From contig CACGWC010000002.1 in NCBI GenBank assembly GCA_902576785.1, positions 124,001 through 188,000 on the forward strand: 64,000 nucleotides of DNA, read 5' to 3'. The stretch's first letter is position 1. Every line of letters starts with the position of its first letter. A program made the position numbers and the translations under genes. The notes under the pieces are model-generated. The model was not told where the DNA came from, did no database searches, and saw nothing but the letters and a program-made list of their open reading frames with translations. The stretch is from an uncultured Pelagibacteraceae bacterium (GTDB lineage: Bacteria > Pseudomonadota > Alphaproteobacteria > Pelagibacterales > Pelagibacteraceae). Positions 43,665 through 63,276 of this stretch are shown here, piece by piece.

Positions 43665-45692
43665 CTACTGCTGCAAACTTGCTAATTCTTCAATATTAAT
43701 ATGACATCTAATAGCATTACCATTTTCACCTATTTGCCATGGTGGAATCTCTGAATTACAAATATCACCTATTTTCCTAGGGCATCTTCCTTGAAAAGAA
43801 CAGCCTTTCTCAGGGGGTTTTTCCTCTACTATATCCTCAGCTACTAATTTTGGTTTTATATCTGGATCTGGTTCTAAAACAGCACCTAATAATACTTCAG
43901 TATAAGGATGTGAAGGAAATTTGTAAACATTTTGAGAAGGACCAATTTCACATAACCTTCCTTGATATAAAACTGCAACTCTATCACTAATTGCTCTAAC
44001 AACAGCCAGATCATGAGAAACAAATACGTAGGTTGTTCCTAGATCTTCTTTTAATTGTTGTAATAAGTTTAAAACAGCTGCTTGAACCGAAACATCTAAA
44101 GCTGATGTAACCTCATCACACAAAATTATATCTGGCTTAGCTGCAAATGCTCTTGCAACCGCAACTCTTTGTTTCTCACCACCTGATAATTGTCTAGGAT
44201 ATCTTGACATATAAAATTCTCCTAACCTTACTTTTTTTAGTAGATCGATTATATTTTTTTTTAATTCTTCTCCTGATAAATTAAAATATAACTTTAGAGG
44301 TTGTGAAAGTATTTGCTCAACTGTGTGGTTTGGATTTAATGACTCATCTGGATTTTGAAATATAAGTTGTATTGCTCGCAGATCATTTGGATTTCTCATT
44401 TTTAAATCAGAAGATAAAATACGATCATTTTCAAATTTAATTTGACCATCTTTTGTTTTGAGTAAGCCAGCAATTGATTTTAAGATGGTAGACTTGCCAC
44501 TTCCAGACTCACCAACCAAGGCAATAGTCTCTCCTTTTTTTATATCTATATTTATATCTTTAACTGTTGGGTTTTGATCAGAAATTTTATTTAATAATTG
44601 ATCAAAAAATTTCTGCTTTGCATAACTAATTGAAACATCCTTTAATTTTAAAACTTCATTTGCTTCACTATTATTTGATTTTTTTGTTATTGAAGTTTGT
44701 AAATTATTATTTTGGTTTATTAATTCTTTATAATTAAAACATCTGACATTGGTATCTAATTCTTTAATATGTTCCAGATCTGGTGAATTTTTTTTACAAT
44801 TATCAGTTGCTAAGTTACATCTATCATAAAAACTACAACCTTCATTTATGCTTCCAGGCTGAGGTTGGCTTCCTGGCATAGAAGCTGGGAGTCCAGCTAG
44901 TGAAAGTTTAGGTATCGATTTTAACAATCCATAAGTATAAGGATGAATAGGTTCTTTTAATATTTTTCTTGCTGGTCCTTCTAAAACAATTTCTCCCGCA
45001 TACATTACAACTATTCTATCACTAACTTGTGCTATGGCTCCAAGGTCATGACTAACATAGATCATAGATGTTCCAGTATCTTTTGCTATAAATCTTAATA
45101 GTTCTAAGACATGCGCTTGTGTTGTAACGTCTAATCCAGTAGTTGGCTCATCTAATAAAAGTAAATCTGGTTTGCCAGCCAATGCCATTGCAACAGCCAC
45201 TCTTTGTTGCTGCCCTCCAGAAAGCTCGTGTGGATAACGAAAAGCCATAGTTTCTGGTGAAGGAAGTCTAACTTTATTTAGTAACTCTGAAATTTTTTTA
45301 TCTCTCTCTGTTTTGTTTAGATCTGTATGTAATTTTAATGCTTCATCAATTTGGTATCCAATTTTTAAATTCGGTGTTAATGCTTGTCCTGCATTTTGAG
45401 GTATCATGGCTATTTTTCTACCTCTAATTTTTTCTAGCTGTCTACTGCTCATCTTCAATAAATCCTTAGATTTAAAGAGACATTCACCCTTAAGAGGAAA
45501 TAAGCCTTGTTTTATATAGCCCATCATAGCAAGTGCTAGTGTGCTTTTTCCAGAACCCGACTCCCCTACGATCCCTACGGTCTCTCCTTTTTTTATATTA
45601 GTTGAAACATTTCTAAGTATTGAAATTTGTTTGCCCTTCTGACTGTTAAATCCAATTGATAAATTTTTAACACTTTCAATTATTTCATTCAT
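43665..45692 (-). CDS. Dipeptide/oligopeptide ABC transporter, fused dual ATP-binding protein (DppD-DppF)
   Basis: Two Walker A (GESGSGKST) and two LSGGxxQRVAVA motifs plus two oligopeptide-type C-terminal Cys clusters. Confidence 0.93.
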   Translation of the reverse strand: MNEIIESVKNLSIGFNSQKGKQISILRNVSTNIKKGETVGIVGESGSGKSTLALAMMGYIKQGLFPLKGECLFKSKDLLKMSSRQLEKIRGRKIAMIPQNAGQALTPNLKIGYQIDEALKLHTDLNKTERDKKISELLNKVRLPSPETMAFRYPHELSGGQQQRVAVAMALAGKPDLLLLDEPTTGLDVTTQAHVLELLRFIAKDTGTSMIYVSHDLGAIAQVSDRIVVMYAGEIVLEGPARKILKEPIHPYTYGLLKSIPKLSLAGLPASMPGSQPQPGSINEGCSFYDRCNLATDNCKKNSPDLEHIKELDTNVRCFNYKELINQNNNLQTSITKKSNNSEANEVLKLKDVSISYAKQKFFDQLLNKISDQNPTVKDINIDIKKGETIALVGESGSGKSTILKSIAGLLKTKDGQIKFENDRILSSDLKMRNPNDLRAIQLIFQNPDESLNPNHTVEQILSQPLKLYFNLSGEELKKNIIDLLKKVRLGEFYMSRYPRQLSGGEKQRVAVARAFAAKPDIILCDEVTSALDVSVQAAVLNLLQQLKEDLGTTYVFVSHDLAVVRAISDRVAVLYQGRLCEIGPSQNVYKFPSHPYTEVLLGAVLEPDPDIKPKLVAEDIVEEKPPEKGCSFQGRCPRKIGDICNSEIPPWQIGENGNAIRCHINIEELASLQQ

Positions 45693-46586
45693 TTAAACAG
45701 GTGCCTTGGTTGAACGATCAATTCCTAAAGCTTTTGCAAATGCATCTGCAGTTAAATTTATTCCAATAATTAACGAACTTAATCCTACTATCGGAGCAAT
45801 TACAGACCAGTATGCAAACGACATTAATCCTCTAGCATTGGATATCATCAAACCCCAATCAGGCGTTGGTGGACTTACACCAAAACCTAAGAATGACAAT
45901 GAGCTAAATCCTAATAACATCCAAGACCATCTCATTGCTCCCTCTACTAATATAGCATCTCTAACATTTGGAATAATTTCATTCCAAATAATAGACATAT
46001 TGCTATGACCTCTAGCTCTGGCTGAAACTATAAAGTCTTTAGCAATAACATCGTGAGTAGCAGCTCTAGCAACTCTTACTATTCCTTTACCATAAAAAAA
46101 ACCTAGTGCAGGAATTAAAACCTCTGTTGATGTTCCTAAAAGAGAAACAATTAATAACATTGCAAGTATCCAAGGGATAGAAAGAAACGCATCAACAACT
46201 CTCATTACAACATCGTCAATTTTACCTCCAACTAAACCACAAAAAATTCCAAGTAAACCTCCCCACAGAAGGGCTATAAGTGATCCAAAGAAAGTTACCG
46301 TAAGAGCTGTTCGACCTCCAAGTATTGTTCTTGTAAAAACATCTCTACCCAAGCTATCTGTTCCAAACCAATGTTCAGCTGAAGGTGCAAGTAACATGGT
46401 ATTTGGGCTAATTGCTTTATAATCGTATGGTGCAATGTAAGGGCTTAATAATGCTAAGACTACATGAAATAAAACGATTGATAAACCAATTAATCCAGAG
46501 GGCTTGGAGGCCATAGTCTTTAAAATCTCAAAAGCCTTTTCTAGCTTATTTTTTTGTTTATCTTCTGTAATTAAATTAGTCTCCAT
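45693..46586 (-). CDS. dppC: Peptide ABC transporter permease (DppC-like)
   Basis: HWFGTDSLGRDVFTRTILGGRTAL; SARARGHSNMSIIWNEIIPN. Confidence 0.92.
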   Translation of the reverse strand: METNLITEDKQKNKLEKAFEILKTMASKPSGLIGLSIVLFHVVLALLSPYIAPYDYKAISPNTMLLAPSAEHWFGTDSLGRDVFTRTILGGRTALTVTFFGSLIALLWGGLLGIFCGLVGGKIDDVVMRVVDAFLSIPWILAMLLIVSLLGTSTEVLIPALGFFYGKGIVRVARAATHDVIAKDFIVSARARGHSNMSIIWNEIIPNVRDAILVEGAMRWSWMLLGFSSLSFLGFGVSPPTPDWGLMISNARGLMSFAYWSVIAPIVGLSSLIIGINLTADAFAKALGIDRSTKAPV

Positions 46587-46587
46587 T

Positions 46588-47544
46588 TTATTTTCTTATC
46601 TGTAAACTTTTTAATCTTGGATTGAGCATGAGTGTCATTAAATCTGCTATTAAATTTATTCCCACATAGATTGATGCCAATATTATTGCTAATGCTTGTA
46701 CAACAGGTAAATCTCTATTTGATATAGACTCAATTACCAGTCTGCCTAAACCGGGATAATTAAAAACAACTTCTGTAACAACAACACCACCTAGTAACCA
46801 AGCAATTGTTAACGCCACTACATTTATTGCTGGTAATAATGCATTTGGTAATACATGTCTAAATACCATTTTCCAATATGGAACACCTTTTAAAATTGCC
46901 ATTTGCACATAATCACTAGCCATTACTTGAATTACACTTGAACGTACCATTCTTGCCATGTGTGCGGTCATAATCATTGAAATTGCAACAACAGGTAAAA
47001 TTATATTCGAAAGTAATTCATAAAAAGTTGCATCCGATGGTATAATCACGATGCCTGGTAGCCAACCAAGCCAAATTGCAACAATTAAAATAAGTAAAGT
47101 AGCACTAATAAACTCAGGAATAGTCATTGAAAAAATTGTGATAGTTGAGATCATAATATCTGGAAGCTTATCTCTCCAAAGAGCAGTTATTATTCCTAAT
47201 ATAATTGCTAAAGGAATTCCTATAAGTATTGAAACAGAGGCTAAAACTAATGAGTTTTTAACTCTTGGACCTAGTACTTCATTAATTGGCATTTCTCCAC
47301 TTAAAGAGTAACCAAAATCACCTCGTACAACATTTGATGCCCAGTCCAAATATCTTTCATAAGCAGGAACATCTAGACCAAGTCTTTTTATACAAGCATC
47401 AAGAGCTGCTCCATAAGCTTCTCTTTCTAAATATGTTGTGCATGCATCCCCAGGTAAAACTTCAACACCTACAAAAGTAATCAATGAAACTATAAATAAA
47501 GTGATAAGCCCTAGTCCAATTCTTTTTAAAATTAATAAAAGCAT
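46588..47544 (-). CDS. dppB: Peptide ABC transporter permease (DppB-like)
   Basis: RYLDWASNVVRGDFGYSLSGEMPINEVLGPR; VFNYPGLGRLVIESISNRDLPVVQA. Confidence 0.92.
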   Translation of the reverse strand: MLLLILKRIGLGLITLFIVSLITFVGVEVLPGDACTTYLEREAYGAALDACIKRLGLDVPAYERYLDWASNVVRGDFGYSLSGEMPINEVLGPRVKNSLVLASVSILIGIPLAIILGIITALWRDKLPDIMISTITIFSMTIPEFISATLLILIVAIWLGWLPGIVIIPSDATFYELLSNIILPVVAISMIMTAHMARMVRSSVIQVMASDYVQMAILKGVPYWKMVFRHVLPNALLPAINVVALTIAWLLGGVVVTEVVFNYPGLGRLVIESISNRDLPVVQALAIILASIYVGINLIADLMTLMLNPRLKSLQIRK

Positions 47545-47629: not shown

Positions 47630-49117
47630 TTAGTCAACTTTAACTTTATGCCACTGTATAGAAAAATGATCTACGGCATCAAGGTTTTTCACCTTTGATG
47701 ATGTAACTACAAGTCTAGATACGTGGTATGGGATCATTGTTCCACTTTGTTCCCATAAAGTCATTTGAGCATTTTGATATGCTTTTTTTCTTTTATTGAA
47801 ATCCAACTCACTTCTAGCATCAGCTAAATTTTTATCAAAGTCAGCATTTTTGAAGTAAGACTCATTCCATTTAGCTCCACTATGATAAGCTTCGTGCAAG
47901 ATTGTGTCTGCTGGTCTTTGGTTCCAACGTGTCATTGAAACTGGTTTTTTCATCCATACTTCATTCCAGTAACCTTTAGATGGTACCATTTCAATGTTGA
48001 CTTTAATTCCAGCTTTTGCAACTTGCTGCTGAACGACTTCTGCAATCGTAGGCCAAGTTGGTTCTAAAGTTGCTGGATAAACAGTCAATTCAATTCCATT
48101 TGGAAATCCTGCTTCTCTTAGTAAATTTTTTGCTTTACTAATATTTTGAGGACAATCCATTTGTAAACGATATTGATCAGAAGGCATTACAGGTGTATCA
48201 CAAGATACAGTTGCCGCACCACCCATAACCAAATCTACAAGTTCTTGTCTATCAACCGCTAACCTAAAAGCTTTTCTCACTTTAGGATTATCAAATGGAG
48301 CAGTATCAGTTCTCATAACCACACCTCTCCAGTTTCCAGTTGGAATTACAGTTGTTTTAAATTTAGAATTACTGTCAAATATCTTTTTTTGATTGAAAGG
48401 AACATATCTGTTCATATCAATTTGGCCTGTTAAAAGAGCTTGAATTCTTGCTTGAGCATCTGGGATCGCAATAACATGAACTTCTGCAACTCCTGGTGCA
48501 CCTTCCCAGTAATCTGGGTTAGCTTTTAGAATTGTAGTTCCTTCTGGATCAAATTTATCAACTATAAATGGTCCAGTACCAACTCCTGTTTGTCCAATAG
48601 TGTCACCTGATCCTTCAGGTATCATTCTTAATCTGTAGTCAGTTAACAATAATGGAAAGTCAGCAAATGAAGTCGATAACTTCATTTTAACGGTATGCTG
48701 ATCGACTACTTCAATCTCTTCTACAACATTTAAACTTTTTCTAACCGGAGATCCAATATCAGGATCTTTAGCTCTCATCAAAGAATATTTAACATCTGGA
48801 GCATCAAAAGCTGACCCATCATGGAAATATATTCCTTTTCTTAAATTAAATGTCCATTCAGTTGCATCAGAATTAGCACTCCAATCTGTTGATAATGAGG
48901 GTGATGGTACACCGTTCATATCAGGCCTTACTAATCTATTTTGAGTTTTGATGACAACTTGAAATAAACGCCCTTTAGTTATGGCATCTAAGTTAGTATC
49001 TTTTCCAAATCCAAGATCATGTGATACTTTAAATACTCCACTTGATGCATTGGCAATAGAAAAAGATAATATCAGAGACATAAAAGTCACTGAAAAAACT
49101 TTAAGTATGTATTTCAT
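47630..49117 (-). CDS. Peptide-type extracellular substrate-binding protein (family 5)
   Basis: Signal peptide; LSTDWSANSDATEWTFNLRKGIYFHDGSAFDAPDVKYSLMRAKDP. Confidence 0.92.
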   Translation of the reverse strand: MKYILKVFSVTFMSLILSFSIANASSGVFKVSHDLGFGKDTNLDAITKGRLFQVVIKTQNRLVRPDMNGVPSPSLSTDWSANSDATEWTFNLRKGIYFHDGSAFDAPDVKYSLMRAKDPDIGSPVRKSLNVVEEIEVVDQHTVKMKLSTSFADFPLLLTDYRLRMIPEGSGDTIGQTGVGTGPFIVDKFDPEGTTILKANPDYWEGAPGVAEVHVIAIPDAQARIQALLTGQIDMNRYVPFNQKKIFDSNSKFKTTVIPTGNWRGVVMRTDTAPFDNPKVRKAFRLAVDRQELVDLVMGGAATVSCDTPVMPSDQYRLQMDCPQNISKAKNLLREAGFPNGIELTVYPATLEPTWPTIAEVVQQQVAKAGIKVNIEMVPSKGYWNEVWMKKPVSMTRWNQRPADTILHEAYHSGAKWNESYFKNADFDKNLADARSELDFNKRKKAYQNAQMTLWEQSGTMIPYHVSRLVVTSSKVKNLDAVDHFSIQWHKVKVD

Positions 49118-49258: not shown

Positions 49259-50482
49259 ATGCAAAACGAATTAAACAAAGTCAGATTTTCAGTAAAACCT
49301 TTAAAATCCAATGATAATAAAGTTGTTGAACTTGCAAGAACTGTGGGAATACATCCTCTAGCGTATCAAGAACTTCCTTACGATCCAGAGTATTCTTTTT
49401 ATGCAGGAAGATTAAATCCAGAAGTACTTTCACATGCAACCGCTGATGAAATGTATTGGAAGGTAAGACAAGAGGTAATTTTTCGTCATACTGGTGAACA
49501 TCCATATGAAATATCTGGTCCTGATGCAGAAAAACTATTACAAAAAATATTTACAAGAGATATCTCAAAAGTAAAAGTAGGAAGGTGCTCTTACCAATTC
49601 GCTTGTTACAACGATGGAGGTATGCTTACAGATGGAGTTTTACTAAAACTTGAAGAAAATAAATTCTGGTTTGTTCAAGCTGATGGTGATCTTTTTTCAT
49701 GGTATAAGGCGCACACTGATAATCTTAATGTAAAAATATCTGACCCAGACGTTTGGGTAAGTCAAATTCAAGGACCTAAATCTATGGATCTTTTAAAAGT
49801 TTTAAGTAAAGAGACTTTTCCTGAGAATTGGAAATATTTTGATTGGAAAGAAATAACTATACTAAATGAAAAGGTAATCATAAGTAGATCGGGTTTCAGT
49901 AATGAACTTGGTTGGGAAATTTATTTTAGAAAAAATAATAATACTGAAAAAGTTGGGGATTACATTCTTGAGGAAGGAAAAAAAATGGGAATGATACTCA
50001 CGGGTACACCTGGTTTCAGATGTAAAAGAATAGAATCTGGATTATTATCAGCTGGGCAAGACTTTAATCATGAAACAAATCCATATGATGTTGGGTTAGG
50101 CAAGTATGTAGATTTAAAAAAAAATTATTTTATTGGAAAATCATCATTGATGACTGCTGATAAAGAAAAAAGATGTTGGGGAATACGAGTAGAAAATGGA
50201 ACAGGTTTAAAAGGAACTTATATAAAATTTAATAATGAAATAATTGGAAAAATTACATCAAGCACTTGGTCACCTTTTCAAAAATGTGGTGTTGGAATTG
50301 TTTTAATGAATTCTACAAAATATAAACCAGGGTTAATAGTGGATGTTAATTGCAATGATAATAAAATTCATAAAGGCGAAATATGCACCTTACCAATGTA
50401 TGACTTTAAAAATGAAATTGTAAGAGGTTTAAAAATTGATATTCCAACAGGTCCTTCTCCGTGGTCAGGAATAAAAAAATAA
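49259..50482 (+). CDS. GcvT/DmdA-like THF-dependent aminomethyl/methyltransferase family protein
   Basis: GEHPYEISGPDAEKLLQKIFTRDISKVKVGRCSYQFACYNDGGMLTDGVLLKL; SRSGFSNELGWEIYF; CKRIESGLLSAGQDFNHETNPYDVGL. Confidence 0.85.
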   Translation: MQNELNKVRFSVKPLKSNDNKVVELARTVGIHPLAYQELPYDPEYSFYAGRLNPEVLSHATADEMYWKVRQEVIFRHTGEHPYEISGPDAEKLLQKIFTRDISKVKVGRCSYQFACYNDGGMLTDGVLLKLEENKFWFVQADGDLFSWYKAHTDNLNVKISDPDVWVSQIQGPKSMDLLKVLSKETFPENWKYFDWKEITILNEKVIISRSGFSNELGWEIYFRKNNNTEKVGDYILEEGKKMGMILTGTPGFRCKRIESGLLSAGQDFNHETNPYDVGLGKYVDLKKNYFIGKSSLMTADKEKRCWGIRVENGTGLKGTYIKFNNEIIGKITSSTWSPFQKCGVGIVLMNSTKYKPGLIVDVNCNDNKIHKGEICTLPMYDFKNEIVRGLKIDIPTGPSPWSGIKK

Positions 50483-51156
50483 TAATAGCAATTGGTGGTG
50501 GTGGATTTACACATTCGTCTGACGAAGACTTGGATGAATATGTAATAAATCAAGTTAATAAATCAAAAATAAATATTGGTTTTTTACCTACCGCTAGCAA
50601 TGATAATCAAGAAAAGACCGATCTTTTTTATAAAAGATTTAAATCGCATAAATTTAAATTATCTCATTTTAATCTATGTTCAAGTGTGGAAGGTTTTAAT
50701 GAATGGCTGATGAACAAAGATATAATTTATGTAGGAGGTGGTAATACCTATAACATGATTAATATTTGGAAAAGACATAATCTTATCAAAGTATTTAAAG
50801 ATGCATATGAAAAGGGAATAATTCTGAGTGGAATAAGCGCAGGAGCCGTCTGTTGGTTTGATTGGATATTATCAGACTCGGTCGATAAAGAGCTAAGTCC
50901 ATTAAAAGGAATAAATTTTTTAGATGGAAGTTGCACACCTCATTCTTCAGATAATAATCGACTTCGACAATTTATTTCAGAAATTAAAGACGGAAATTTG
51001 CCAGATGGAATAGCCATTGATGATGGTGTAGCTGTGCTTTTTATTGACGGAGTTCCTTCAGAGGTTTATTCTTCAAGAATTAATCATGACGCTTATTATG
51101 TGACTAGACATGATAAGATAAGTTTAAAAACATATATAAAAAATTTAAATGGATAA
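50461..51156 (+). CDS. Peptidase E-like (S51) serine hydrolase
   Basis: IIYVGGGNTYNMINIWKRHNL; GIILSGISAGAVCWFD nucleophile Ser. Confidence 0.8.
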   Translation: MVRNKKIIIAIGGGGFTHSSDEDLDEYVINQVNKSKINIGFLPTASNDNQEKTDLFYKRFKSHKFKLSHFNLCSSVEGFNEWLMNKDIIYVGGGNTYNMINIWKRHNLIKVFKDAYEKGIILSGISAGAVCWFDWILSDSVDKELSPLKGINFLDGSCTPHSSDNNRLRQFISEIKDGNLPDGIAIDDGVAVLFIDGVPSEVYSSRINHDAYYVTRHDKISLKTYIKNLNG

Positions 51157-52309
51157 CATTAAAGCCAGTAATAAAATTTTTAGCATTGAAGACGCAAAAA
51201 AACTATCAAAGAAAAGATTGCCAAAGATAGTTTATGATTTTATTGATGGCGCATCTGGAGATGAAAAGTTATCAGAAATTAATAGTTTTGCTTTAGATCA
51301 AATACGTCTTGAGCCAAGAGTTCTAAGAAATGTAGAGGAAAGAAAACTAAAAAAAAATATTCTTGGATTTAACTATGACTATCCATTTGGTTTTGCCCCA
51401 ATGGGTATGACAAATCTTTCATGGCCGGGAGCAGACTCAATGCTGGCAAAAGAGAGTGCAAGAAATAATATACCAACTTGTGTATCGATGGCTTCCACAA
51501 CTACCTTAGAAAAAATGTATGAACTTTCAGAAGGTCATTCGTGGCTTCAACTTTATATTTTTCAGGATGAAGCTTTTGTCATGGAATTGCTCGATAGAGC
51601 AGAAAAAACTGGTTATGAAGTTGCTATACTTACTGTTGATGTTCCGGTTTTATCTAGGAGAACTAGGGATGATAAAAATGGATTCTCATATCCATTTAAA
51701 ATTGGACCTAAACAATTTTTTGATTTTGCAACTCATCCTGTTTGGTCAATATCTACATTGCTTAATGGAATACCAAAGCCAATGAATTACGAGACTTCAA
51801 AAAGTGGAAAAGGTATTTTTAAAAGAAAAGAAAGTAGAGGAAAAACAGATTGGGAAACTCTAAAAAGAGTAAGAAATAAATGGAAAGGCAAATTAATTGT
51901 AAAAGGTGTTATGTCATCAGATGATGCAGTTAAAATTAAAGAAATGGGCGCTGATGCTATCCAAGTTTCAAATCATGGAGGTAGACAATTAGATAGTGCC
52001 TCAGCAGCAATAAACATTTTACCTTTTATTAGAGAGGCAGTAGGAAATAATTTTCCGATTATTTTTGATAGTGGGATAAGAAGTGGTAGCGATATTGTTA
52101 GATCATTAGCTTTAGGAGCAGATTTTTCAATGATTGGAAGGCCTGTAATGTATGCCATGGGCGCTGATGGTGCTAGCGGGCTAAGAAGAATTGTAGACAT
52201 AATCAAAGAAGAAGCCAGCACAACACTAGGTTTGGTTGGATTAAATGATATTAATGAAGTTTCTTCTGATATAATCGAACAAAAACTTTTTATGAATACA
52301 ACTTACTAA
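51149..52309 (+). CDS. FMN-dependent alpha-hydroxy-acid dehydrogenase (LldD/glycolate oxidase family)
   Basis: PKIVYDFIDGASGDE; IQVSNHGGRQLDSASAAI; IIFDSGIRSGSDIVRSLALGADFSMIGRP. Confidence 0.9.
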   Translation: MDNIKASNKIFSIEDAKKLSKKRLPKIVYDFIDGASGDEKLSEINSFALDQIRLEPRVLRNVEERKLKKNILGFNYDYPFGFAPMGMTNLSWPGADSMLAKESARNNIPTCVSMASTTTLEKMYELSEGHSWLQLYIFQDEAFVMELLDRAEKTGYEVAILTVDVPVLSRRTRDDKNGFSYPFKIGPKQFFDFATHPVWSISTLLNGIPKPMNYETSKSGKGIFKRKESRGKTDWETLKRVRNKWKGKLIVKGVMSSDDAVKIKEMGADAIQVSNHGGRQLDSASAAINILPFIREAVGNNFPIIFDSGIRSGSDIVRSLALGADFSMIGRPVMYAMGADGASGLRRIVDIIKEEASTTLGLVGLNDINEVSSDIIEQKLFMNTTY

Positions 52310-52310
52310 T

Positions 52311-54050
52311 ATGGAAAAAAAAATAAGAGGCGGAGCATTAATTGCAAGAGCATTAAAAGATAAAGGTATTAATAAAGTTTTTACTCTATCTGGTGGGTTT
52401 TGTAATCCTGCTATTGAAGGTTTCATGGAATGTCAAATTGATGTGGTTAATTGTCCTCATGAACAAATAGCTGGACACTTAGCAGATGGACACACAAGAA
52501 TTACAAGAAAACCATCTGTATGTTTAGTTGGACCAGAAGGTTTTGCAAATGCAGTGCCATCCATGATGGAAGCATGGGGAGAAAGAACACCGATAATTTA
52601 TATAACTGGATCAAGTAGTTTAAAAAGACAAGGCTCAGGTGGTTTTAAAGAAATTGATGATGTTTCAATAGCTGCTCCTCTTACAAAATATAGCGCAAGC
52701 ATTACAGATGGAACAAGAATTAGAGAATTTGTTGATAAAGCTTACAGAATTGCGACGAATGGATATCCTGGAGCTGTTCATCTAAGTTTACCAGTGGATA
52801 TAATGTTTTCTTCATTTGAAGAAAATGCTGGACTTGAAGAAAGACCATTTTCACATAAAGCAAAGCCAGTTGCTAAAGCATGGCCAGATCCAAATGCTCT
52901 ATCAAAAATACTTGAGCTAGCATGTAATGCAAAAAAACCTGTCATAATTGGAGGACATGGTGTTTGGTGGTCAAACTCAGAAAAAAATTTAGAGACTGCG
53001 GGTGAAAGTTTAAATATTCCAGTTTTTAATGTGCCATACCATCAAAAACTTTTGGGGGAAGAGGCAAATGCATATATGGGTTTAGCAGATATTCACCAAT
53101 ATCCACCCTCAGAATTTGCATTGCATAATTCAGACTTAGTTTTAATGATTGGTGCAAGGTTAGATAACCAAATGAATTTTGGTAACCCTCCTTTCATTCC
53201 AAAAACAACAACGTTAGTTTGTATTAACGGTTCCCATGAAGAAATTGAGTTTAATAGAGCGGCTGATCATAACCTTTTATGTGATCCAGGAGTATTTTTG
53301 GATACTCTATGTAATTTAAAGAAAAATAATAAATGGAATTTAGAAAATAGTTGGTTTCAAGATAATAAAAATAAAAAAAAAGATTGGGTGGATAAATCTT
53401 TAAATGAATTAAAGATTGAAGCAGATAAAGCAAAAAAAAATGGAGGAAAAATTCATCCGCTACAATTAGCGTTAGACGTTCAAGACGCAATGGATGAGAA
53501 AGATTGGCTTGTAATTGATGGAGGAAATACTCATTTCTGGTCGGAGATCGCTATAAATTTAGCAGGAGCTCGAGGAAAAAAATTGGGTGGAATTTTACAT
53601 CCAGGCACATTTAGTATGCTGGGTGTTGGTGTATCATTTGCATTATCTGCAAAAAATAATAATCCTAAATCGAATGTAATTTTAATTAGTGGAGATGGTG
53701 CCTTTTTATCTGGTGGCATGTCTATAGAAACTGCATTTTTTGAAAAGAAACCAATAGTTGTTGTTATTGACAATAATGGTGGCTTAGCATCAATTGGTCA
53801 ACAACAAGAAAGACTATTTGAAAGCGGAAAAAGAGTTGCAACAGACTTTAGAGATATACCTTTCCACAGTATATTTGAAGGTTTTGGGGGTCATGGAGAA
53901 TTAGTAACGAAAAGAGAAGAATTGGGTCCAGCACTAAAAAGAGCTATTGCAAGCGGTAAAACTGCTTGTGTAAATGTAAAAGCTAAACCAGTATTAAGTC
54001 CAATTGTTGCTGCTGTGGCCAGCAAGAGAGAGAAATCTTCAATAGAGTAA
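52311..54050 (+). CDS. Thiamine diphosphate-dependent enzyme, acetolactate synthase-like
   Basis: NCPHEQIAGHLADGHTRIT; SGDGAFLSGGMSIETAFFEKKPIVVVIDNN ThDP motif. Confidence 0.88.
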   Translation: MEKKIRGGALIARALKDKGINKVFTLSGGFCNPAIEGFMECQIDVVNCPHEQIAGHLADGHTRITRKPSVCLVGPEGFANAVPSMMEAWGERTPIIYITGSSSLKRQGSGGFKEIDDVSIAAPLTKYSASITDGTRIREFVDKAYRIATNGYPGAVHLSLPVDIMFSSFEENAGLEERPFSHKAKPVAKAWPDPNALSKILELACNAKKPVIIGGHGVWWSNSEKNLETAGESLNIPVFNVPYHQKLLGEEANAYMGLADIHQYPPSEFALHNSDLVLMIGARLDNQMNFGNPPFIPKTTTLVCINGSHEEIEFNRAADHNLLCDPGVFLDTLCNLKKNNKWNLENSWFQDNKNKKKDWVDKSLNELKIEADKAKKNGGKIHPLQLALDVQDAMDEKDWLVIDGGNTHFWSEIAINLAGARGKKLGGILHPGTFSMLGVGVSFALSAKNNNPKSNVILISGDGAFLSGGMSIETAFFEKKPIVVVIDNNGGLASIGQQQERLFESGKRVATDFRDIPFHSIFEGFGGHGELVTKREELGPALKRAIASGKTACVNVKAKPVLSPIVAAVASKREKSSIE

Positions 54051-54051
54051 A

Positions 54052-54387
54052 ATGGCAAAATTTAGCTCACATTTATTGAATGGTTCTGATGGAACTCATG
54101 CAAGTAACGTCAAAGTAAAGATTTATCAAATACAATCCTCAAAATTAAAAAAGCTTTTTTTGAATACAAAGACTGATGGAAATGGTAGGATTAATCAGCA
54201 TTTCAATCTTAGCAAAAAAGATTGTAAATGCGATTATGAAATGATTTGTGATATTAAAAGATACTTTAAAAAGAAAAAAATTGTGGGTGAAATAGTCGTA
54301 AAATTTAAAATGACTGATAATAAAAAAAATTATCACTTGCCAATAATAATTTCTCCTAACAGCTATACAGTTTGGTGGTCAAAATAA
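54052..54387 (+). CDS. Transthyretin/5-hydroxyisourate hydrolase-like small protein, divergent
   Basis: FSSHLLNGSDGTHASNVKVKIYQI…TDGNGRINQHF…NYHLPIIISPNSYTVWWSK matches TTR/HIUase fold landmarks from memory; canonical C-terminal YRGS replaced by WWSK. Confidence 0.68.
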   Translation: MAKFSSHLLNGSDGTHASNVKVKIYQIQSSKLKKLFLNTKTDGNGRINQHFNLSKKDCKCDYEMICDIKRYFKKKKIVGEIVVKFKMTDNKKNYHLPIIISPNSYTVWWSK

Positions 54388-54390
54388 TAT

Positions 54391-55554
54391 ATGGCTTCGT
54401 TGATACAAAGCAAAATTAGCACAAAACTAAATATGTCTAGGAGAATAAGAAGAACTCCTTACACCAAGAGAGTTGAAGAATGTGGTGTAACTGATTTTAC
54501 TGTTGTAAATCATATGCTCTTACCAAAAAGATTTCAGAAATCTGTTGAGGATGATTATTGGCATTTAAATGAGCATGTTCAGCTATGGGATGTTTCTTGT
54601 CAAAGACAAGTTCAGATATCAGGTCCAGACGCTAGTTTATTAGTACAAAAAATGACACCAAGATCTTTAAAAAATATGGAGACTGGAAAATGTTTTTATA
54701 TTCCTATGATAGATGAAAATGCTGGAATGATAAATGATCCAGTGTTGTTAAAGTTAGATGATGATATGTTTTGGATTTCAATAGCAGATTCTGATGTATT
54801 GCTTTGGGCAAAAGGTATTGCAGTTGGTTTAAATCTAAATGTGAGCATAACAGAACCAGATGTATATCCTCTTGCAGTACAAGGTCCAAAGTCTGAAGAT
54901 TTGATGGCATCGATATTCGGAGAAGATATTAGAAAATTAAAATTTTTTAATTTTAGAATATTTGATTTTTTAGGAACTAAACAAGTTATTGCAAGATCAG
55001 GATACAGCAAACAAGATGGATTTGAGATTTATTTTAAATGCTTTGAAGATTACTTCGACAAAAATGAAATGGGAGAAAAAATTTGGGATATAATATGGAA
55101 AGCGGGGAAAGAATTTAACATTGCTCCAGGATGCCCAAATTTAATTGACAGAATAGAAGCAGGATTAATGTCATATGGAAATGATTTTACAAAAGAAAAT
55201 AATCCAATTGAATGTAACTTAGAAAAATATTGTAGTGACAAAAGTGATCATGATTTCATTGGAAAAAATGCTTTAGATAATATTAAGAAACAAGGTGTAA
55301 AACAAAAATTAAAAGGAGTATTATTTGATGGTGTAGATTGTCCTCCATGTTCAATTCCTTTTCCACTTTATTCAAAAGATAAGAAATTAATTGGTAAAAT
55401 TACTTCAGGGATTTATTCTCCAAAATTCAAAAAAAATATTGGTTTATCTATGATTTTAAATGAATTTTGCAAAACAGGATCAGAAGTTTTAGTTCACACT
55501 CCTGATAATAAATTAAGAAAAGGAATTGTGTCCTCTTTACCATTTTCAAAATAA
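54391..55554 (+). CDS. DmdA-like GcvT-family demethylase (dimethylsulfoniopropionate demethylase or close paralog)
   Basis: RRIRRTPYTKRVEECGVTDFTVVNHMLLP…LNEHVQLWDVSCQRQVQISGPDA…ISIADSDVLLWAKG…ARSGYSKQDGFEIYF…GCPNLIDRIEAGLMSYGND closely parallels SAR11 DmdA as remembered. Confidence 0.75.
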   Translation: MASLIQSKISTKLNMSRRIRRTPYTKRVEECGVTDFTVVNHMLLPKRFQKSVEDDYWHLNEHVQLWDVSCQRQVQISGPDASLLVQKMTPRSLKNMETGKCFYIPMIDENAGMINDPVLLKLDDDMFWISIADSDVLLWAKGIAVGLNLNVSITEPDVYPLAVQGPKSEDLMASIFGEDIRKLKFFNFRIFDFLGTKQVIARSGYSKQDGFEIYFKCFEDYFDKNEMGEKIWDIIWKAGKEFNIAPGCPNLIDRIEAGLMSYGNDFTKENNPIECNLEKYCSDKSDHDFIGKNALDNIKKQGVKQKLKGVLFDGVDCPPCSIPFPLYSKDKKLIGKITSGIYSPKFKKNIGLSMILNEFCKTGSEVLVHTPDNKLRKGIVSSLPFSK

Positions 55555-55577
55555 TAATTAGTAGGTATAATTCTTAT

Positions 55578-56702
55578 ATGAAAAGAGCAGTTATAGCAGG
55601 ATATTCAAGATCACCTTTTACAATGGCAAGAAAAGGTGAATTAATTGATGTTAAGCCTGTAAATATGTTTGCAGAAGTTGTTAAAAATCTTGTATCTAAA
55701 ACTAAAGTAAATCCTGCTGATATAGAAGATATTGTTGTTGGGTGTGCTTTCCAGGTTGGAGAGCAGAGTTTTAATATTGGGAAACTCACAACATTTTTAT
55801 CTGGAATGGAAATACATACGTCTGGAATGACTGTCGATAGATGGTGTGGTTCATCTATGGAAGCTATTCATGTTGCAGCAGGTAAAATAGCAATGGGCGC
55901 AGGAAAAGTTTTCGTATGTGGAGGTGTTGAAAGTATGACTAGGGTTACAACTGGCTTTGAACCAATACCTTATCCTTACACAGATAAAGAAAATCCAAAT
56001 GTCTATTTTTCAATGGGAATAACTGCTGAAAATGTTGCCAAGAGATATAAAATTTCAAGAACTGAACAACAAGAGTTTGCAATTCAAAGTCATCAAAAAG
56101 CCAATGAAGCTGAAGTTAATGGTAAATTTAAAAATGAAATCGTTGAAATCGCTGGTTGCACAAAAGATGGAAACATACGTCCAAAAAGTAATCAAGAAAC
56201 TTTAGATGGTTTAAAACTTGCATTTGATCAAGAAGGAACTGTTACTGCAGCAACATCCTCACCTCTTACCGATGGAGCAGCAGCAACATTGATATGTGAA
56301 GAAAGCTATGCAAAAGAAAATGGTTTAGAGATTTTAGCTAGAATTGTTTCAACTGGAGTTAAAGGATGTGAACCAGATGTAATGGGACTTGGACCTATAG
56401 GAGCAACCAAGAAAGCATTAGAGAGAGCAAATTTATCAATTAATGATATCGATATTGTAGAGATTAATGAAGCTTTTGCTTCTCAATCAATAGCATGCTT
56501 AAAAGATCTTGGTATCGATCAAAAAAAAGCTAATTTAGATGGTGGAGCTTTAGCACTGGGACACCCTCTAGGAGCAACAGGAGCGAGAATAACTGGCAAA
56601 GCTGCAGATTTACTTAGACGTGAAAATAAGAAATATGCTTTATCTACTCAATGCATCGGTTTAGGTATGGGTATTGCGACAGTAATCGAGTCGGTAAATT
56701 AA
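55578..56702 (+). CDS. Thiolase (acetyl-CoA acyltransferase family)
   Basis: DRWCGSSMEAIHVAAGKI; INEAFASQSIACLKDLG; GALALGHPLGATGARI; TQCIGLGMGIATV. Confidence 0.93.
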   Translation: MKRAVIAGYSRSPFTMARKGELIDVKPVNMFAEVVKNLVSKTKVNPADIEDIVVGCAFQVGEQSFNIGKLTTFLSGMEIHTSGMTVDRWCGSSMEAIHVAAGKIAMGAGKVFVCGGVESMTRVTTGFEPIPYPYTDKENPNVYFSMGITAENVAKRYKISRTEQQEFAIQSHQKANEAEVNGKFKNEIVEIAGCTKDGNIRPKSNQETLDGLKLAFDQEGTVTAATSSPLTDGAAATLICEESYAKENGLEILARIVSTGVKGCEPDVMGLGPIGATKKALERANLSINDIDIVEINEAFASQSIACLKDLGIDQKKANLDGGALALGHPLGATGARITGKAADLLRRENKKYALSTQCIGLGMGIATVIESVN

Positions 56703-57557
56703 TTATCTATTAATTCCTCTTAAACGTTCCGATCTTCTTCTTAACAATTCAGCACTAATCAATATTAAGGTCGATAAAACGATTAAACAAGTGGCTACTG
56801 CTAGAATTGTAGGGCTTAATTGTTCTCTTAGACCTGTCCACATTTGAATTGGAATAGTTGTATTTTCAAGACCAGCTAAAAATAAAACGACTACAACTTC
56901 ATCAAAAGAAGTTACAAAAGCAAACAAACCTCCTGAAATTACTCCAGGTAAAATCAACGGAAGTGTTACTTTCATAAATGTATTTACTGGGTTACTACCT
57001 AAACTAGCTGCCGCTCTTGTTACACTATGATCGAAACCTGATAATGTTGCAGTAACAGTAATTACAACAAAAGGTGTTCCCAAAATTATATGAGCTAAAA
57101 CTATTCCTGTATGAGTTGCCGCTAAACCTGCTTTTGCCATAAAAAAGAATATTGCAACACCTGATATAATAAGTGGAACTATCATTGGTGAAATCAAAGT
57201 TGCCATTATTATTCCTTTGAAGGGCATGTGTCTGCTGCTCAATCCTAATGCAGCAACCGTTCCTAAAATTACTGACCCTAAAGTTGCAAATATAGCAATA
57301 ATAAAACTATTCTTTGCAGCAAGACCCCATGGGTTCTTTGTGCCGTAAACCATATCTTTGTACCATCTTAATGAAAAAGCATCTGGGTCTAAATTCTTCA
57401 TCCCTTCTGAAAAAACAAGAAACTCTTCTGCATTAAATGATAATGGAAATATTACAAACAAAGGTGCTATTAAAAAAATAAAAACAAAAGTACATATGGC
57501 AATGTAAAAGTAGTGCCAAATTCTATATCTAGTTTCTGTATACTTTGGTAATGCCAT
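56703..57557 (-). CDS. potC: Spermidine/putrescine-type ABC transporter permease (PotC-like)
   Basis: RAAASLGSNPVNTFMKVTLPLILPGVISGGLFAFVTSFDEVVV. Confidence 0.9.
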   Translation of the reverse strand: MALPKYTETRYRIWHYFYIAICTFVFIFLIAPLFVIFPLSFNAEEFLVFSEGMKNLDPDAFSLRWYKDMVYGTKNPWGLAAKNSFIIAIFATLGSVILGTVAALGLSSRHMPFKGIIMATLISPMIVPLIISGVAIFFFMAKAGLAATHTGIVLAHIILGTPFVVITVTATLSGFDHSVTRAAASLGSNPVNTFMKVTLPLILPGVISGGLFAFVTSFDEVVVVLFLAGLENTTIPIQMWTGLREQLSPTILAVATCLIVLSTLILISAELLRRRSERLRGINR

Positions 57558-57558
57558 A

Positions 57559-58821
57559 CTAACCTAACTTAATATTATCAACTCCAACTAATTTATTATA
57601 AAGCCAATAGATAACCAAAACTCCTCCAAGCAACATAAGCCCCATCGCTGAAGCAAAACTCCAATCTAAAGTAGTTTTCATATGATATGCAATTTGGTTA
57701 CTAATTAAGGTTCCTGATGCTCCCCCAACTAATGCAGGTGTAATGTAATATCCAATTGCTAAAATAAAAACTAAAAGACACCCTGCCCCGATACCTGGTA
57801 TGGTTAATGGAAAATATACTTTCCAAAAAGCCACAAAAGGTGTTCCGCCAAGAGATTTACCTGCTCTCATTAAACTCGGCGAGATAGTTTTCATCACACT
57901 GTAGAGTGGTAAAACCATAAATGGTAAGAGAATTTGAGTCATCGCAACATAAGTTCCGACTTTGTTGTACATCATTTCTGGCCTATTATCGTCTGCCACG
58001 AGCCCAATCATTACAAAGAAATCGTTAACTACTCCTTGCTGTTGAAGTAAAATCATCCAGCTAGCTGTTCTAACTAATAATGATGTCCAAAATGGTAGAA
58101 GAACACAAATCATTAATAAATTACTATACTTCATTGGGAGTGTTGCTAATAAATGGGCTATTGGGTAACCCATTAAAAAACAAAAAACAGTAACAAAGAA
58201 AGCAACCTCTACAGTTCTCAACCATAAAATTCTATGTATTCTTCTATCTTCACTAACTTGAGTAATTTTGTTATCTTCATTCAAATACATATCCATAGCT
58301 TTTAAATATTTAGCTGAAGTGTAAGGAGGGGCAGTTCTTTTAATTGCTTGCCAATATTCTACATTTCTCCATCTCTTGTGCACTTTCATTATTTGTTCTT
58401 TAATACTTTGTGTCTCGTCGATTTTATTCCTTTTTACCTGTCTGAATAATTTTTTTGTAATAGTGTTGAACCCATTTTTTTCTTTATTAAGTCTTTGGGC
58501 TAATTTTCCATGTTCTTTTTTTTCTACAAGAATTTTAAAATCAGATAAAAATGAAGCAAATACGTCTTCGGATGGAAGCTCTTTACCGTCCCATGTTTCC
58601 ATAGACTTAAATGTTTTTGGAAGCATTTTTGTAATCATTTTATCATCAATGCTTCTTGTAAACATTTCTCCGATTGGAAAAATATAAGTGATAATCAAAA
58701 AAAGTAATAATGGAGCAACAAGTAAAAATGCTTTAATTTTGTTTTTTCTTTCAGCTTTTTTTAAACTTATCTCTAAAGGAATTCCGTCAGTTGTAAGTAT
58801 TTGTTTTGTTTCGCTGCTCAT
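57559..58821 (-). CDS. potB: Spermidine/putrescine-type ABC transporter permease (PotB-like) with large insertion after TM1
   Basis: RAGKSLGGTPFVAFWKVYFPLTIPGIGAG; ~135-aa hydrophilic segment between TM1 and TM2. Confidence 0.88.
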   Translation of the reverse strand: MSSETKQILTTDGIPLEISLKKAERKNKIKAFLLVAPLLLFLIITYIFPIGEMFTRSIDDKMITKMLPKTFKSMETWDGKELPSEDVFASFLSDFKILVEKKEHGKLAQRLNKEKNGFNTITKKLFRQVKRNKIDETQSIKEQIMKVHKRWRNVEYWQAIKRTAPPYTSAKYLKAMDMYLNEDNKITQVSEDRRIHRILWLRTVEVAFFVTVFCFLMGYPIAHLLATLPMKYSNLLMICVLLPFWTSLLVRTASWMILLQQQGVVNDFFVMIGLVADDNRPEMMYNKVGTYVAMTQILLPFMVLPLYSVMKTISPSLMRAGKSLGGTPFVAFWKVYFPLTIPGIGAGCLLVFILAIGYYITPALVGGASGTLISNQIAYHMKTTLDWSFASAMGLMLLGGVLVIYWLYNKLVGVDNIKLG

Positions 58822-58829
58822 AAATAAAA

Positions 58830-58853
58830 AGGGCGACTTAAAAAAGTCGCCCT
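58830..58853 (-). terminator. Strong hairpin between PotD-like and PotB-like genes
   Basis: AGGGCGACTTaaaaAAGTCGCCCT perfect 10-bp stem, short T tract on minus strand. Confidence 0.8.
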
Positions 58854-58888
58854 ATATATATTATATTATTCTAGTCTTTTATACTCTT

Positions 58889-60004
58889 TTATAGACCAGC
58901 TTTCATAGCTTCCCACTTCTCACCAAGTTCTGTACCGTTATCAGCCCAGAAAAATGGATCAACTAAAAAGTATTTTTTAGTGTTTGCAGGAGCAGTTGGC
59001 ATTTGTGGCATCATTTCAGTTTTACCATCTTTGTACCAAGGCTCATTTGCTTTGATAATTTCTAAAGATGACAATCTGTATGGAGCATATGCAATATATT
59101 TAGCACTTCCAGCTAACATTTCAGTGTTAGTCATCATTGCTAAAGCTTTTTTAGCATTTGCTTCATCTGGTCCACCTTTAACAAGTGCGAAATATTCATA
59201 GTCAAGACCTTGTCCATCCCATACTTGTTTAATTGGAGCACCTTCACCGATTTCAGCATTAAAGAATCTTCCATTCCAACCAGTTGCCATAACAACTTCA
59301 CCAGATACTAATAATTCTGGTGGTTGAGCACCTGCAGACCAGAATACACATCCACCATTTGGATCTGTACAAAGCTCTTTAATTTTGTTCATAGCTCTAT
59401 TAACACCAGCTTCAGTTTCTAGTAATTTGTAGATCTCTGATCCACCTTTACCCATGTAAACTCCGTCACCAGCTAAAGCGATTTCTAGGTTTGTTAGAGC
59501 TGATTTATAAATAGCTCTTTTTCCTGGAAATTTTTTAGTGTTAAAGAAATCTTTTATAGTCGATGGTGTGCCGTCAACATTGTTTACGTTGTAAGCATAG
59601 TTCCAAGAATATAAAATGTTTCCTACCGCACATTTACTTGGCATTGGAGCAAAGAAATCTTCACTTGCAGGAGTTCCATCTGGAGCTGCAGGGAAGTCTT
59701 TGTCAAAATCGAATTCAACGAAAATTCCTTCGTCACATCCGTTGATAGTATCAAATGCGAATACATCGATAATATCCCAAGTAATTGCACCTGCTTCTTT
59801 TTGAGCTTTAATCTCAGATAATCCACCTGAATAGTCTACCCAGTTGATATCAACACCAAGAGCTTTTGCAGTTGGATCACCATACCCTAGCTTTTGAGAC
59901 TCTGTATAAGCTCCACCCCAAGATGCTACTGTAACCGCAAATGCAGATGAAGTTATTGAAAGAGCAAAAGAAAGAGCAAGTAATAATTTACTTAATTTTT
60001 TCAT
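58889..60004 (-). CDS. potD: Spermidine/putrescine-type substrate-binding protein (PotD-like)
   Basis: Signal peptide; VTVASWGGAYTESQKLGYGDPTAKALGVDINWVDYSGGLSEIKAQ. Confidence 0.88.
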   Translation of the reverse strand: MKKLSKLLLALSFALSITSSAFAVTVASWGGAYTESQKLGYGDPTAKALGVDINWVDYSGGLSEIKAQKEAGAITWDIIDVFAFDTINGCDEGIFVEFDFDKDFPAAPDGTPASEDFFAPMPSKCAVGNILYSWNYAYNVNNVDGTPSTIKDFFNTKKFPGKRAIYKSALTNLEIALAGDGVYMGKGGSEIYKLLETEAGVNRAMNKIKELCTDPNGGCVFWSAGAQPPELLVSGEVVMATGWNGRFFNAEIGEGAPIKQVWDGQGLDYEYFALVKGGPDEANAKKALAMMTNTEMLAGSAKYIAYAPYRLSSLEIIKANEPWYKDGKTEMMPQMPTAPANTKKYFLVDPFFWADNGTELGEKWEAMKAGL

Positions 60005-60015
60005 TTATCCTCCGT

Positions 60016-60044
60016 TTAAACGTTTAATATAAATTAATTTATAT
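60016..60044. promoter_or_regulatory. Two adjoining palindromes upstream of potD-like RBS (candidate operator/5' UTR element)
   Basis: TTAAACGTTTAA (60016-60027) and ATATAAATTAATTTATAT (60027-60044), both perfect; RBS GGAGG lies directly downstream on minus strand. Confidence 0.35.
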
Positions 60045-60119
60045 AAGCGAAGTACAACAAAAACGATATTCAGAGTCAACAGGCCATTTTGTTATAGGAA
60101 TACTGGGATATTTAAGAAA

Positions 60120-61205
60120 TTATTTAGGATCTAGAGCTCTTGCGTCTTGACTGTTCCATCCTACTTTAATCTCATTACCTAATTTTAAATCTAACTCGTT
60201 TGAGCTATTTGGAACTTTTAAAATAAATTCTTTATTACCTAAAAGATCTAATCTTACTCTAGTGTGATCACCATGGTAAATAACTTCTTCGATTTTTCCC
60301 GTTTGATTATTATCCATTTTATCTTTTGGATTTATCAATGCCCTCTCAGGTCTTATTGAAACTGTTGTTTTATCACCTTTGGAAGTTACTGAAACTGGAT
60401 TAGCTAAAATTTCTCCATTTTGTAGTTTAACTTTACAAACATCTTTTGAAATGTCAGTTACTTCTCCTCCAAATGTATTATTTTCACCTATAAACTCTGC
60501 AACGAAAGAATTAACTGGTTCTTCGTACAATTTATCAGGACTTGATAATTGTTGAACTTTACCATCATTAAAAACTGCGATCCTATTTGACATTGTTAAT
60601 GCTTCTCCTTGATCGTGTGTAACGTAAACTACAGTAACACCAATATTTTCATGAATATGTTTAATTTCGTATTGCATACTTTCTCTTAAGTTTTTATCTA
60701 AAGCTCCAAGAGGTTCATCCATTAGAACTACTGCTGGATCAAATACTAGAGCTCTTGCAACAGCTACCCTTTGTTGCTGACCACCAGATAATTGTGCTGG
60801 CATTCTACTTTCAAATCCTGATAAAGAAACCATTGATAAAGCTTTATCTACTTTTTTATCAATCTCATCTTTTTGAACTTTTCTAACTCTTAAAGGAAAT
60901 GCTAAATTTTCATAAACTGTCATATGAGGAAACAATGCATAATTTTGAAAAACCATTCCAATTCCTCTTTTGTGCGGTGGAATATTAGAAATAGGATTAG
61001 AATCTAAATAGATTTCACCATTGGTTGGTGTTTCAAATCCAGCCAACATCATCAGACAAGTTGTTTTTCCTGAACCAGATGGACCAAGCATAGTAATGAA
61101 CTCGCCCTCTGAGATATTAAGATTTAAATCTTTTACTACTAAGACTTTACCATCGTAACTTTTGTCAACTTTATCGAACTTAACGAATTCTGTATTTTTA
61201 GACAT
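60120..61205 (-). CDS. potA: Spermidine/putrescine-type ABC transporter ATP-binding protein (PotA-like)
   Basis: GPSGSGKTTCLMMLAGFE; LSGGQQQRVAVARALV; VVLMDEPLGALDKNLRE; TOBE-like C-terminus. Confidence 0.93.
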   Translation of the reverse strand: MSKNTEFVKFDKVDKSYDGKVLVVKDLNLNISEGEFITMLGPSGSGKTTCLMMLAGFETPTNGEIYLDSNPISNIPPHKRGIGMVFQNYALFPHMTVYENLAFPLRVRKVQKDEIDKKVDKALSMVSLSGFESRMPAQLSGGQQQRVAVARALVFDPAVVLMDEPLGALDKNLRESMQYEIKHIHENIGVTVVYVTHDQGEALTMSNRIAVFNDGKVQQLSSPDKLYEEPVNSFVAEFIGENNTFGGEVTDISKDVCKVKLQNGEILANPVSVTSKGDKTTVSIRPERALINPKDKMDNNQTGKIEEVIYHGDHTRVRLDLLGNKEFILKVPNSSNELDLKLGNEIKVGWNSQDARALDPK

Positions 61206-62419: not shown

Positions 62420-63160
62420 TTAATCAAACAGTCTTCCAAATCCTTTTACAGATTTATTTTCACCTATGTTTTCTAAAGATTCCCAGATTAAAGCCTGATT
62501 GCTTGAAAGAACTGGTATTTCAAGTTTATCTTCTAATTTTTGTATTAGAGGAAGAACTGGTAAAGCGGTGCAAGATACAAATAAAGCATCTGCCTCACTT
62601 ACATCTAAATTTATTAGCACATCAAACAGATAATTTTGATCTACTTTACCAATCTCCATGTCAGAATGAATATCAAAGTATGAATTTGAGGTGATTTCAA
62701 AACCAGATGAATTAAAATAATCAACAACATCATCGTTAACTTTTTTACTGTAAGGTGTGAATATAGAAAGTTTTTTAATATTTAATTTTTTCAATGCTTT
62801 CAAAGCTGCTGTACTTGGTGTTGAAAGTTTTGCCTCAGGTTTTGCTGCTTGTATTTTATTTTTAATATTATCGTACCCTGCTGCAATAGTTCCTGATGTA
62901 CAAGCATATACAACACAGTCTAATTTTTGCTCTGGCAAGATATCTCTTGTTACTTGAGTAATATTCTCTGACATTTTGATCAAATTCTCTTTGGTTAAGG
63001 GATTATAACATTCTATTCTATTTACAAAAAAATCTATTTTTTTATCTTTAATTACACTTATAAAATCTTTTTCAATCACTAGATCGGTTGCTAAAGCGAT
63101 AAGTCCAATACGTGGATTTTGGTTATTTTCAAACTTTGGTTCTATTTTTTGTGATTTCAT
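62420..63160 (-). CDS. Asp/Glu racemase-fold protein, EutA/maleate isomerase-like
   Basis: NPRIGLIALATDLVIEKDF; two Cys motifs VYACTSGTIAAG and FVSCTALPVLPLIQ; likely start MKSQKIEP (63160). Confidence 0.75.
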   Translation of the reverse strand: MKSQKIEPKFENNQNPRIGLIALATDLVIEKDFISVIKDKKIDFFVNRIECYNPLTKENLIKMSENITQVTRDILPEQKLDCVVYACTSGTIAAGYDNIKNKIQAAKPEAKLSTPSTAALKALKKLNIKKLSIFTPYSKKVNDDVVDYFNSSGFEITSNSYFDIHSDMEIGKVDQNYLFDVLINLDVSEADALFVSCTALPVLPLIQKLEDKLEIPVLSSNQALIWESLENIGENKSVKGFGRLFD

Positions 63161-63276
63161 AAATACAATATACCACCACATATTGATTAATCATTAAAAT
63201 TTAAAAACTGTATCTAATTTCTTGAATGGTTATAGTAAATAAACGTATAATAAGAAAAATTAATTTTGAAATATAA

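Follow-up and report, generated by a model that had tools for sequence, protein, structure and literature searches.

A conserved marine gene unit with a DmdA-like protein that looks like a distinct catabolic pathway

We analysed a 64,000-nucleotide stretch (the window) on contig C2 of a SAR11-type genome (1.20 Mb) and found in it a conserved block of seven co-directional genes at 49259-56702. These genes are in the order T1, S51, FMN, ThDP, TTR, T2 and thiolase, and encode two GcvT/DmdA-like proteins (T1 and T2), a peptidase E-like hydrolase (S51), a flavin mononucleotide (FMN)-dependent 2-hydroxyacid dehydrogenase, a thiamine diphosphate (ThDP) enzyme, a transthyretin-like protein (TTR) and a thiolase. 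Four of the genes, FMN-ThDP-TTR-T2, form a core that recurs across phyla, and the unit as a whole has the look of a separate pathway built out of known families. We give an even chance to the following reading: T2 is not a demethylase of dimethylsulfoniopropionate (DMSP), the core is an undescribed and widespread marine pathway acting on another onium 2-hydroxyacid, such as 4-dimethylsulfonio-2-hydroxybutyrate (DMSHB) or a betaine analogue, and part of the dmdA counts in databases for SAR11, SAR116, SUP05, other Gammaproteobacteria and Roseobacters is another flux of carbon and of sulfur or nitrogen. SAR11 and SAR116 rank with the most abundant heterotrophs in the sea, and many of the compounds they use have yet to be identified. 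That a streamlined genome keeps an importer with a catabolic unit, and that both are conserved, suggests a substrate common enough to repay the genes. No description of the cluster was found in the open-access papers searched, a coverage outside which most subscription papers and all preprints fall.

The original prediction, made from the sequence alone, described an uncharacterised catabolic operon facing away from a peptide-type transporter. All open reading frames (ORFs) were found where it placed them, and Pfam agrees with it on every gene family (GCV_T twice, Peptidase_S51, FMN_dh, three TPP domains, Transthyretin and thiolase). The junctions are tight; T1 and S51 overlap by 22 base pairs (bp) and S51 and FMN by 8 bp, and the gaps along FMN-ThDP-TTR-T2-thiolase are 1, 1, 3 and 23 bp. 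The divergent Dpp-type importer is complete, with an SBP_bac_5 protein, two permeases and a fused double ATPase at 43665-49117 on the minus strand. Gene order was compared with that of 28 loci from other Pelagibacter genomes. The seven genes are in the same order in 27 of them, and in the 28th (L049) the contig ends after ThDP, which cuts off the remainder. With this order kept, the seven-gene arrangement is far beyond chance, and the neighbourhood on which the prediction depends is conserved in relatives. TTR identity to the window protein across the Pelagibacter loci is 51-100%; of the 297 genomes of the order, 47 have a TTR homolog with 51% identity or more, and these 47, from which the 28 loci were taken, belong to one genus. 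The conserved block runs past 56702 into a Pot transporter, an M24 hydrolase and a EutA-like gene. The upstream Dpp importer and, downstream, the convergent Pot importer and the DoeA-like M24 gene are kept in nearly all relatives, and the EutA-like gene is likewise kept wherever the locus of a relative extends that far. Some SAR11 genomes have insertions: a gene for a binding protein, in antisense orientation, separates T1 from S51 (as in L045), an IlvE aminotransferase gene follows thiolase, or a tripartite ATP-independent periplasmic (TRAP) transporter precedes Pot. The IlvE aminotransferase was considered as a pathway-specific enzyme and dropped, as it passes the ordinary branched-chain cut-off.

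A search of the GTDB genomes with ThDP as the query protein gave 56 loci. The conserved unit outside SAR11 is smaller, namely FMN-ThDP-TTR-T2, and is found in SAR116, SUP05, other Gammaproteobacteria, a Deltaproteobacterium, Planktomarina and Rhodobacteraceae; two Chloroflexi metagenome-assembled genomes have FMN-ThDP alone. The order of the core is kept across classes at 50-70% identity, and the ThDP protein is 62-90% identical across lineages. Only 12 of 298 genomes in the family of Roseobacter relatives have ThDP, and therefore its distribution is patchy. Plasmid records gave no close ThDP match. In two SAR116 loci (L128 and L144) and one Roseobacter locus (L161), an orthologous Dpp importer (56-67% identity) occurs together with S51; the importers beside the core in other lineages are of the TRAP, Pot or Liv type, and CocE, GGT or CN-hydrolase proteins may take the part of S51. 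T1 occurs outside SAR11 in one other small-genome alphaproteobacterial group only, and thiolase is not beside the core there, except for a different, BktB-like thiolase in L170. Of the predicted operon, a conserved, undescribed catabolic unit with an importer is supported; T1 can be split off from the other genes, and thiolase is not core outside SAR11. The proposed breakdown to coenzyme A (CoA) esters loses its footing, since it rests on the thiolase that non-SAR11 clusters lack. The lineage-specific T1 and thiolase and the antisense gene between T1 and S51 would suit chance neighbours with no common pathway, but this explanation is hardly credible in view of the order in 27 of 28 relatives and of a core kept across classes. 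Three gammaproteobacterial loci, L141 (5442-8560), L143 and L146, were also observed to have the core followed by an S-adenosylmethionine methyltransferase and a RutB-like isochorismatase, with a DMFA2-type protein in L141 and L143. In L166 (4963-7337), T2 is immediately followed by genes for a 3-keto acid cleavage enzyme and a 3-hydroxyacyl-CoA/carnitine-dehydrogenase-like protein, in the vicinity of C1-folate genes, and in L079 OsmC and a hydratase come after T2.

T2 resembles DmdA closely. Its score on the curated DmdA model NF009133 is 532 bits (cut-off 410), T2 proteins of a Roseobacter, SAR116 and a gammaproteobacterium score 551-561 bits, and all tested lineages are over the cut-off. 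The alignment shows about 47% identity to Pelagibacter ubique DmdA; the residues contacting tetrahydrofolate (THF), S122, E204 and Y206, are present, and Asn replaces the catalytic Asp of GcvT, as in DmdA. The two differ at position 32 of the P. ubique structure 3tfh (T2 V39), which is Val in 31 of 31 homologs linked to ThDP/TTR and Tyr in 20 of 20 unlinked DmdA homologs. These counts concern the best-scoring homologs in Rhodobacteraceae-type and SAR11 genomes, which are related sequences and not independent events, and Tyr at this position is a feature found in this analysis rather than a published DmdA criterion. T2 further differs from DmdA in its obligate FMN-ThDP-TTR linkage and in its hosts, which also include Gammaproteobacteria, SUP05 and a Deltaproteobacterium. 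Since residue 32 splits by linkage, T2 can be regarded, at the level of sequence, as a DmdA-like but separable subfamily. The branching order among T2 groups and DmdA is not resolved in the tree, in which T2 does not appear as one clade apart. W171, a key residue for DMSP interaction (PMC7487153), was mapped to W197 here and tried as another marker; it was dropped because the Tyr found in T2 is also found in annotated Roseobacter DmdA.

T2 might instead be an ordinary second DMSP demethylase, with FMN-ThDP-TTR as an unrelated or loosely coupled travelling module. We consider this rather unlikely, though a serious contender. Besides the identity of T2 to P. ubique DmdA and a score far over the curated cut-off, it is favoured by the SAR92 proteins that complement a Ruegeria pomeroyi dmdA mutant while being only 35-40% identical to ratified DmdAs (PMC10746254); therefore, the T2 sequence alone cannot exclude DMSP demethylation. 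A SAR116 DmdA annotation has also been interpreted as DMSP demethylation (PMC12262181). However, the split at residue 32 is perfect, and a separate canonical DmdA, about 50% identical to T2, is already present in the same SAR11 genomes (on C14 in the genome of the window). The FMN-ThDP-TTR-T2 order is kept across classes as well. In both the SAR11 block and the DMSP operons, in which dmdA occurs with dmdB, dmdC and acuH (SAR92, PMC10746254), a DmdA-type protein would initiate methyl transfer, but the SAR11 block has neither dmdB nor dmdC and has 2-hydroxyacid, ThDP and TTR genes instead. Because T2 passes the curated DmdA cut-off, counts of DMSP demethylation in genomes and metagenomes may be inflated by enzymes with another function. 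Residue 32 together with linked ThDP/TTR genes would be a simple discriminator of the T2 type from DmdA. Roseobacter plasmid loci L156 (2339-7070) and L157 (819-4077) have an Lrp regulator, a GcvT-like protein, OsmC, enoyl-CoA hydratase and acyl-CoA synthetase in a row, an order reminiscent of the SAR92 dmdA-acuH-dmdB-dmdC cluster.

T1 is more distant, scoring 206 bits on NF009133, under the cut-off. It has Thr in place of the GcvT aspartate, whereas a GcvT-like protein of the same genome, on C3, retains the catalytic Asp. T1 and T2 thus both differ from the glycine cleavage T-protein, and no gcvH or gcvP was recognised among the ORFs of the block. This supports the original view that both are THF-dependent demethylase-type proteins. 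In L083 and L088, relatives of T1 from other Alphaproteobacteria (35-42% identity) are encoded next to OpuAC glycine-betaine importers, and an MttB-family protein is present in four clusters without T1 (L131, L163, L164 and L170). Because its relatives adjoin OpuAC importers and MttB proteins replace it elsewhere, a quaternary-onium demethylase is the likeliest role of T1.

The FMN enzyme has the SNHGGRQ motif and matches (S)-mandelate and L-lactate dehydrogenases, but it is under every curated NCBIfam cut-off. In the ThDP enzyme, Glu51 and the GDGA...NN motif are invariant. Its best PDB matches and nearest solved relatives are 2-hydroxyacyl-CoA lyases (HACL) and oxalyl-CoA decarboxylase, with which it shares ThDP domains and cofactor motifs, and benzaldehyde lyase is also among the matches. 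Unlike these enzymes, it reaches none of the curated cut-offs shown (239 of 600 bits for HACL and 209 of 557 for oxalyl-CoA decarboxylase), and no CoA ligase or transferase gene adjoins it in the window. A mandelate-type route for a methoxylated aromatic or similarly bulky 2-hydroxyacid, with T2 and T1 as LigM-like O-demethylases, would use the mandelate dehydrogenase and benzaldehyde lyase likenesses, and O-demethylases of the GcvT family, LigM and DesA, do exist. This route seems quite improbable; T1 and T2 match LigM/DesA weakly (47-66 bits), aromatic-ring genes were not recognised in any cluster, and neighbours such as MttB and OpuAC suggest onium compounds. S51 is over the cut-off for the PF03575 domain (125 bits) and has the GxSAG nucleophile, but with 33 bits it is under the PepE equivalog cut-off of 156.

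TTR has the fold of 5-hydroxyisourate hydrolase (HIUase), its best PDB match, in a predicted structure with a predicted local distance difference test (pLDDT) score of 95. It shares with HIUase the His/Arg/His triad (H7/R46/H95), which does not vary among the 14 cluster TTRs examined. It differs in that the C-terminal YRGS is absent in all 14, which have W(W)S instead (WWSK in the window), in lacking a purine operon and in scoring under the curated cut-off (72 versus 87). A built-in control is provided by seven SAR11 homologs (about 30% identity) that do have the YRGS end; all seven adjoin xanthine-dehydrogenase-type genes. A true HIUase was seen in other SAR11 genomes (L059-L066) in a purine-type operon with xanthine-dehydrogenase-like subunits, and genomes G119 and G171 hold both TTR types. 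The unit could also degrade an N-methylated purine or ureide, where TTR would open the methylated ring, FMN would oxidise a ureidoglycolate-like 2-hydroxyacid and ThDP would decarboxylate an oxalyl-type product. The fold and triad of TTR agree with this, as do the nearest relatives of ThDP, the Ldh_2 proteins of other clusters, whose best scores are with malate/lactate/ureidoglycolate dehydrogenase models, and the RutB-like isochorismatase and DMFA2 proteins of the gammaproteobacterial clusters. We still find it improbable, because SAR11 genomes have a separate YRGS HIUase beside xanthine-dehydrogenase-type genes, the cluster TTR has neither YRGS nor purine genes nearby, and a ureide N-methyl group is not an onium donor.

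Taken together, we are about half convinced that the unit is dedicated to the breakdown of a methylated 2-hydroxyacid with an onium group (dimethylsulfonio or trimethylammonio), and we infer its steps from the observed gene set. Uptake of the substrate is probably in the form of a conjugate, such as a small amide, an ester or a dipeptide-like compound. The Dpp-type importer, or TRAP, Pot or Liv importers in other lineages, would take up the conjugate, and S51 (CocE, GGT or CN-hydrolase elsewhere) would free the acid. T1 (MttB or PF02574 proteins elsewhere) and T2 would then pass methyl groups to an acceptor, which would be THF for T1 and T2. This transfer may proceed without oxidation because both lack the GcvT aspartate; DmdA is redox-neutral and GcvT is not (PMC5395565). 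The FMN enzyme would next convert the L-2-hydroxyacid to a 2-oxoacid. Other clusters have an NAD-type D-2-hydroxyacid dehydrogenase adjoining FMN (L138, L150 and L152), Ldh_2 (L129 and L163) or ApbA (L163), which agrees with a 2-hydroxyacid or 2-oxoacid intermediate. The ThDP enzyme would carry out C-C cleavage or decarboxylation, and TTR may hydrolyse the product.

DMSHB, a Met-derived sulfonium compound, is the best single named candidate, carrying a small share of the whole probability, and an N-betaine analogue is the main alternative to it. Several algae that make DMSP also contain DMSHB (PMC5395565), which would suit both T2 and the FMN step. The methylated amino-acid- or peptide-like osmolyte first proposed as the substrate becomes one of several possible substrates. 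Several points weigh against the onium 2-hydroxyacid. The DMSHB version gives TTR no role, and the core has no aldehyde dehydrogenase for the product of ordinary 2-oxoacid decarboxylation. The hints are mixed, as MttB and the OpuAC neighbours of T1 relatives point to nitrogen, and the DmdA-likeness of T2 and a methanethiol-oxidase (MtoX)-type protein in L135 (148 bits, under the cut-off of 650) point to sulfur, as do PF02574 proteins in the L079 group and L147 and a cystathionine/methionine-lyase-type protein in L169. The agmatinase-family genes divergent from FMN in L164 and L169, and DMFA2 and isochorismatase in L141 and L143, fit neither cleanly. Each of these accessory links rests on one to four loci.

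Table 1. Features at and around the seven-gene block (window coordinates)
Feature	Coordinates	Strand	Basis
Dpp-type importer, fused double ATPase	43665..45692	-	Sequence; kept in SAR11; 59-60% identity in L128, L161
Dpp-type importer, permease	45693..46586	-	Kept in SAR11; 64-66% identity in L161/L128
Dpp-type importer, permease	46588..47544	-	Kept in SAR11; 62-63% identity in L128/L161
Peptide-family substrate-binding protein, SBP_bac_5	47630..49117	-	Pfam; 56-58% identity in SAR116 and Roseobacter clusters
T1, GcvT/DmdA-like, predicted quaternary-onium demethylase	49259..50482	+	Pfam; DmdA model score; OpuAC-adjoining relatives
S51 hydrolase, peptidase E-like	50461..51156	+	Pfam; GxSAG nucleophile; in SAR116 and Roseobacter clusters
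FMN-dependent 2-hydroxyacid dehydrogenase, mandelate/lactate dehydrogenase type, core gene	51149..52309	+	Pfam; SNHGGRQ active-site motif
ThDP enzyme, distant 2-hydroxyacyl-CoA lyase/oxalyl-CoA decarboxylase relative, core gene	52311..54050	+	Pfam; cofactor motifs
TTR, transthyretin/HIUase-like predicted hydrolase, core gene	54052..54387	+	Pfam; H7/R46/H95; structure model
T2, DmdA-like predicted THF-dependent demethylase, V39 (=Y32 of 3tfh) subfamily, core gene	54391..55554	+	Family model; residues
T2 codon 39, Val (Tyr in every unlinked DmdA examined)	54505..54507	+	Alignment
Thiolase, acetyl-CoA C-acyltransferase family, SAR11 accessory	55578..56702	+	Pfam; family models
Pot-type ABC importer (potC, potB, potD, potA), convergent	56703..61205	-	Kept in SAR11; also adjoins core in Rhodobacteraceae L169
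M24 hydrolase, DoeA-like	61244..62416	-	447 bits on curated DoeA model, under cut-off 613; M24 protein also in L169
EutA/arylmalonate-decarboxylase-like protein	62420..63181	-	Homolog in L169

A promoter scan of the locus gave no more matches than shuffled sequence. No Rfam element was found in the window, and seven related loci gave transfer RNA only. Two other regions of the window were also observed. At 13686-16025, a trimethylamine N-oxide demethylase (1107 bits against a curated cut-off of 1100) is followed by sarcosine-oxidase-type and glutamine-synthetase/glutamate-synthase-like genes, which makes this a second methylated-amine region in the window. Upstream of the Dpp genes, at 36241-39832, are genes for an M20 peptidase, an aldehyde dehydrogenase and an agmatinase-family protein that is over its cut-off.

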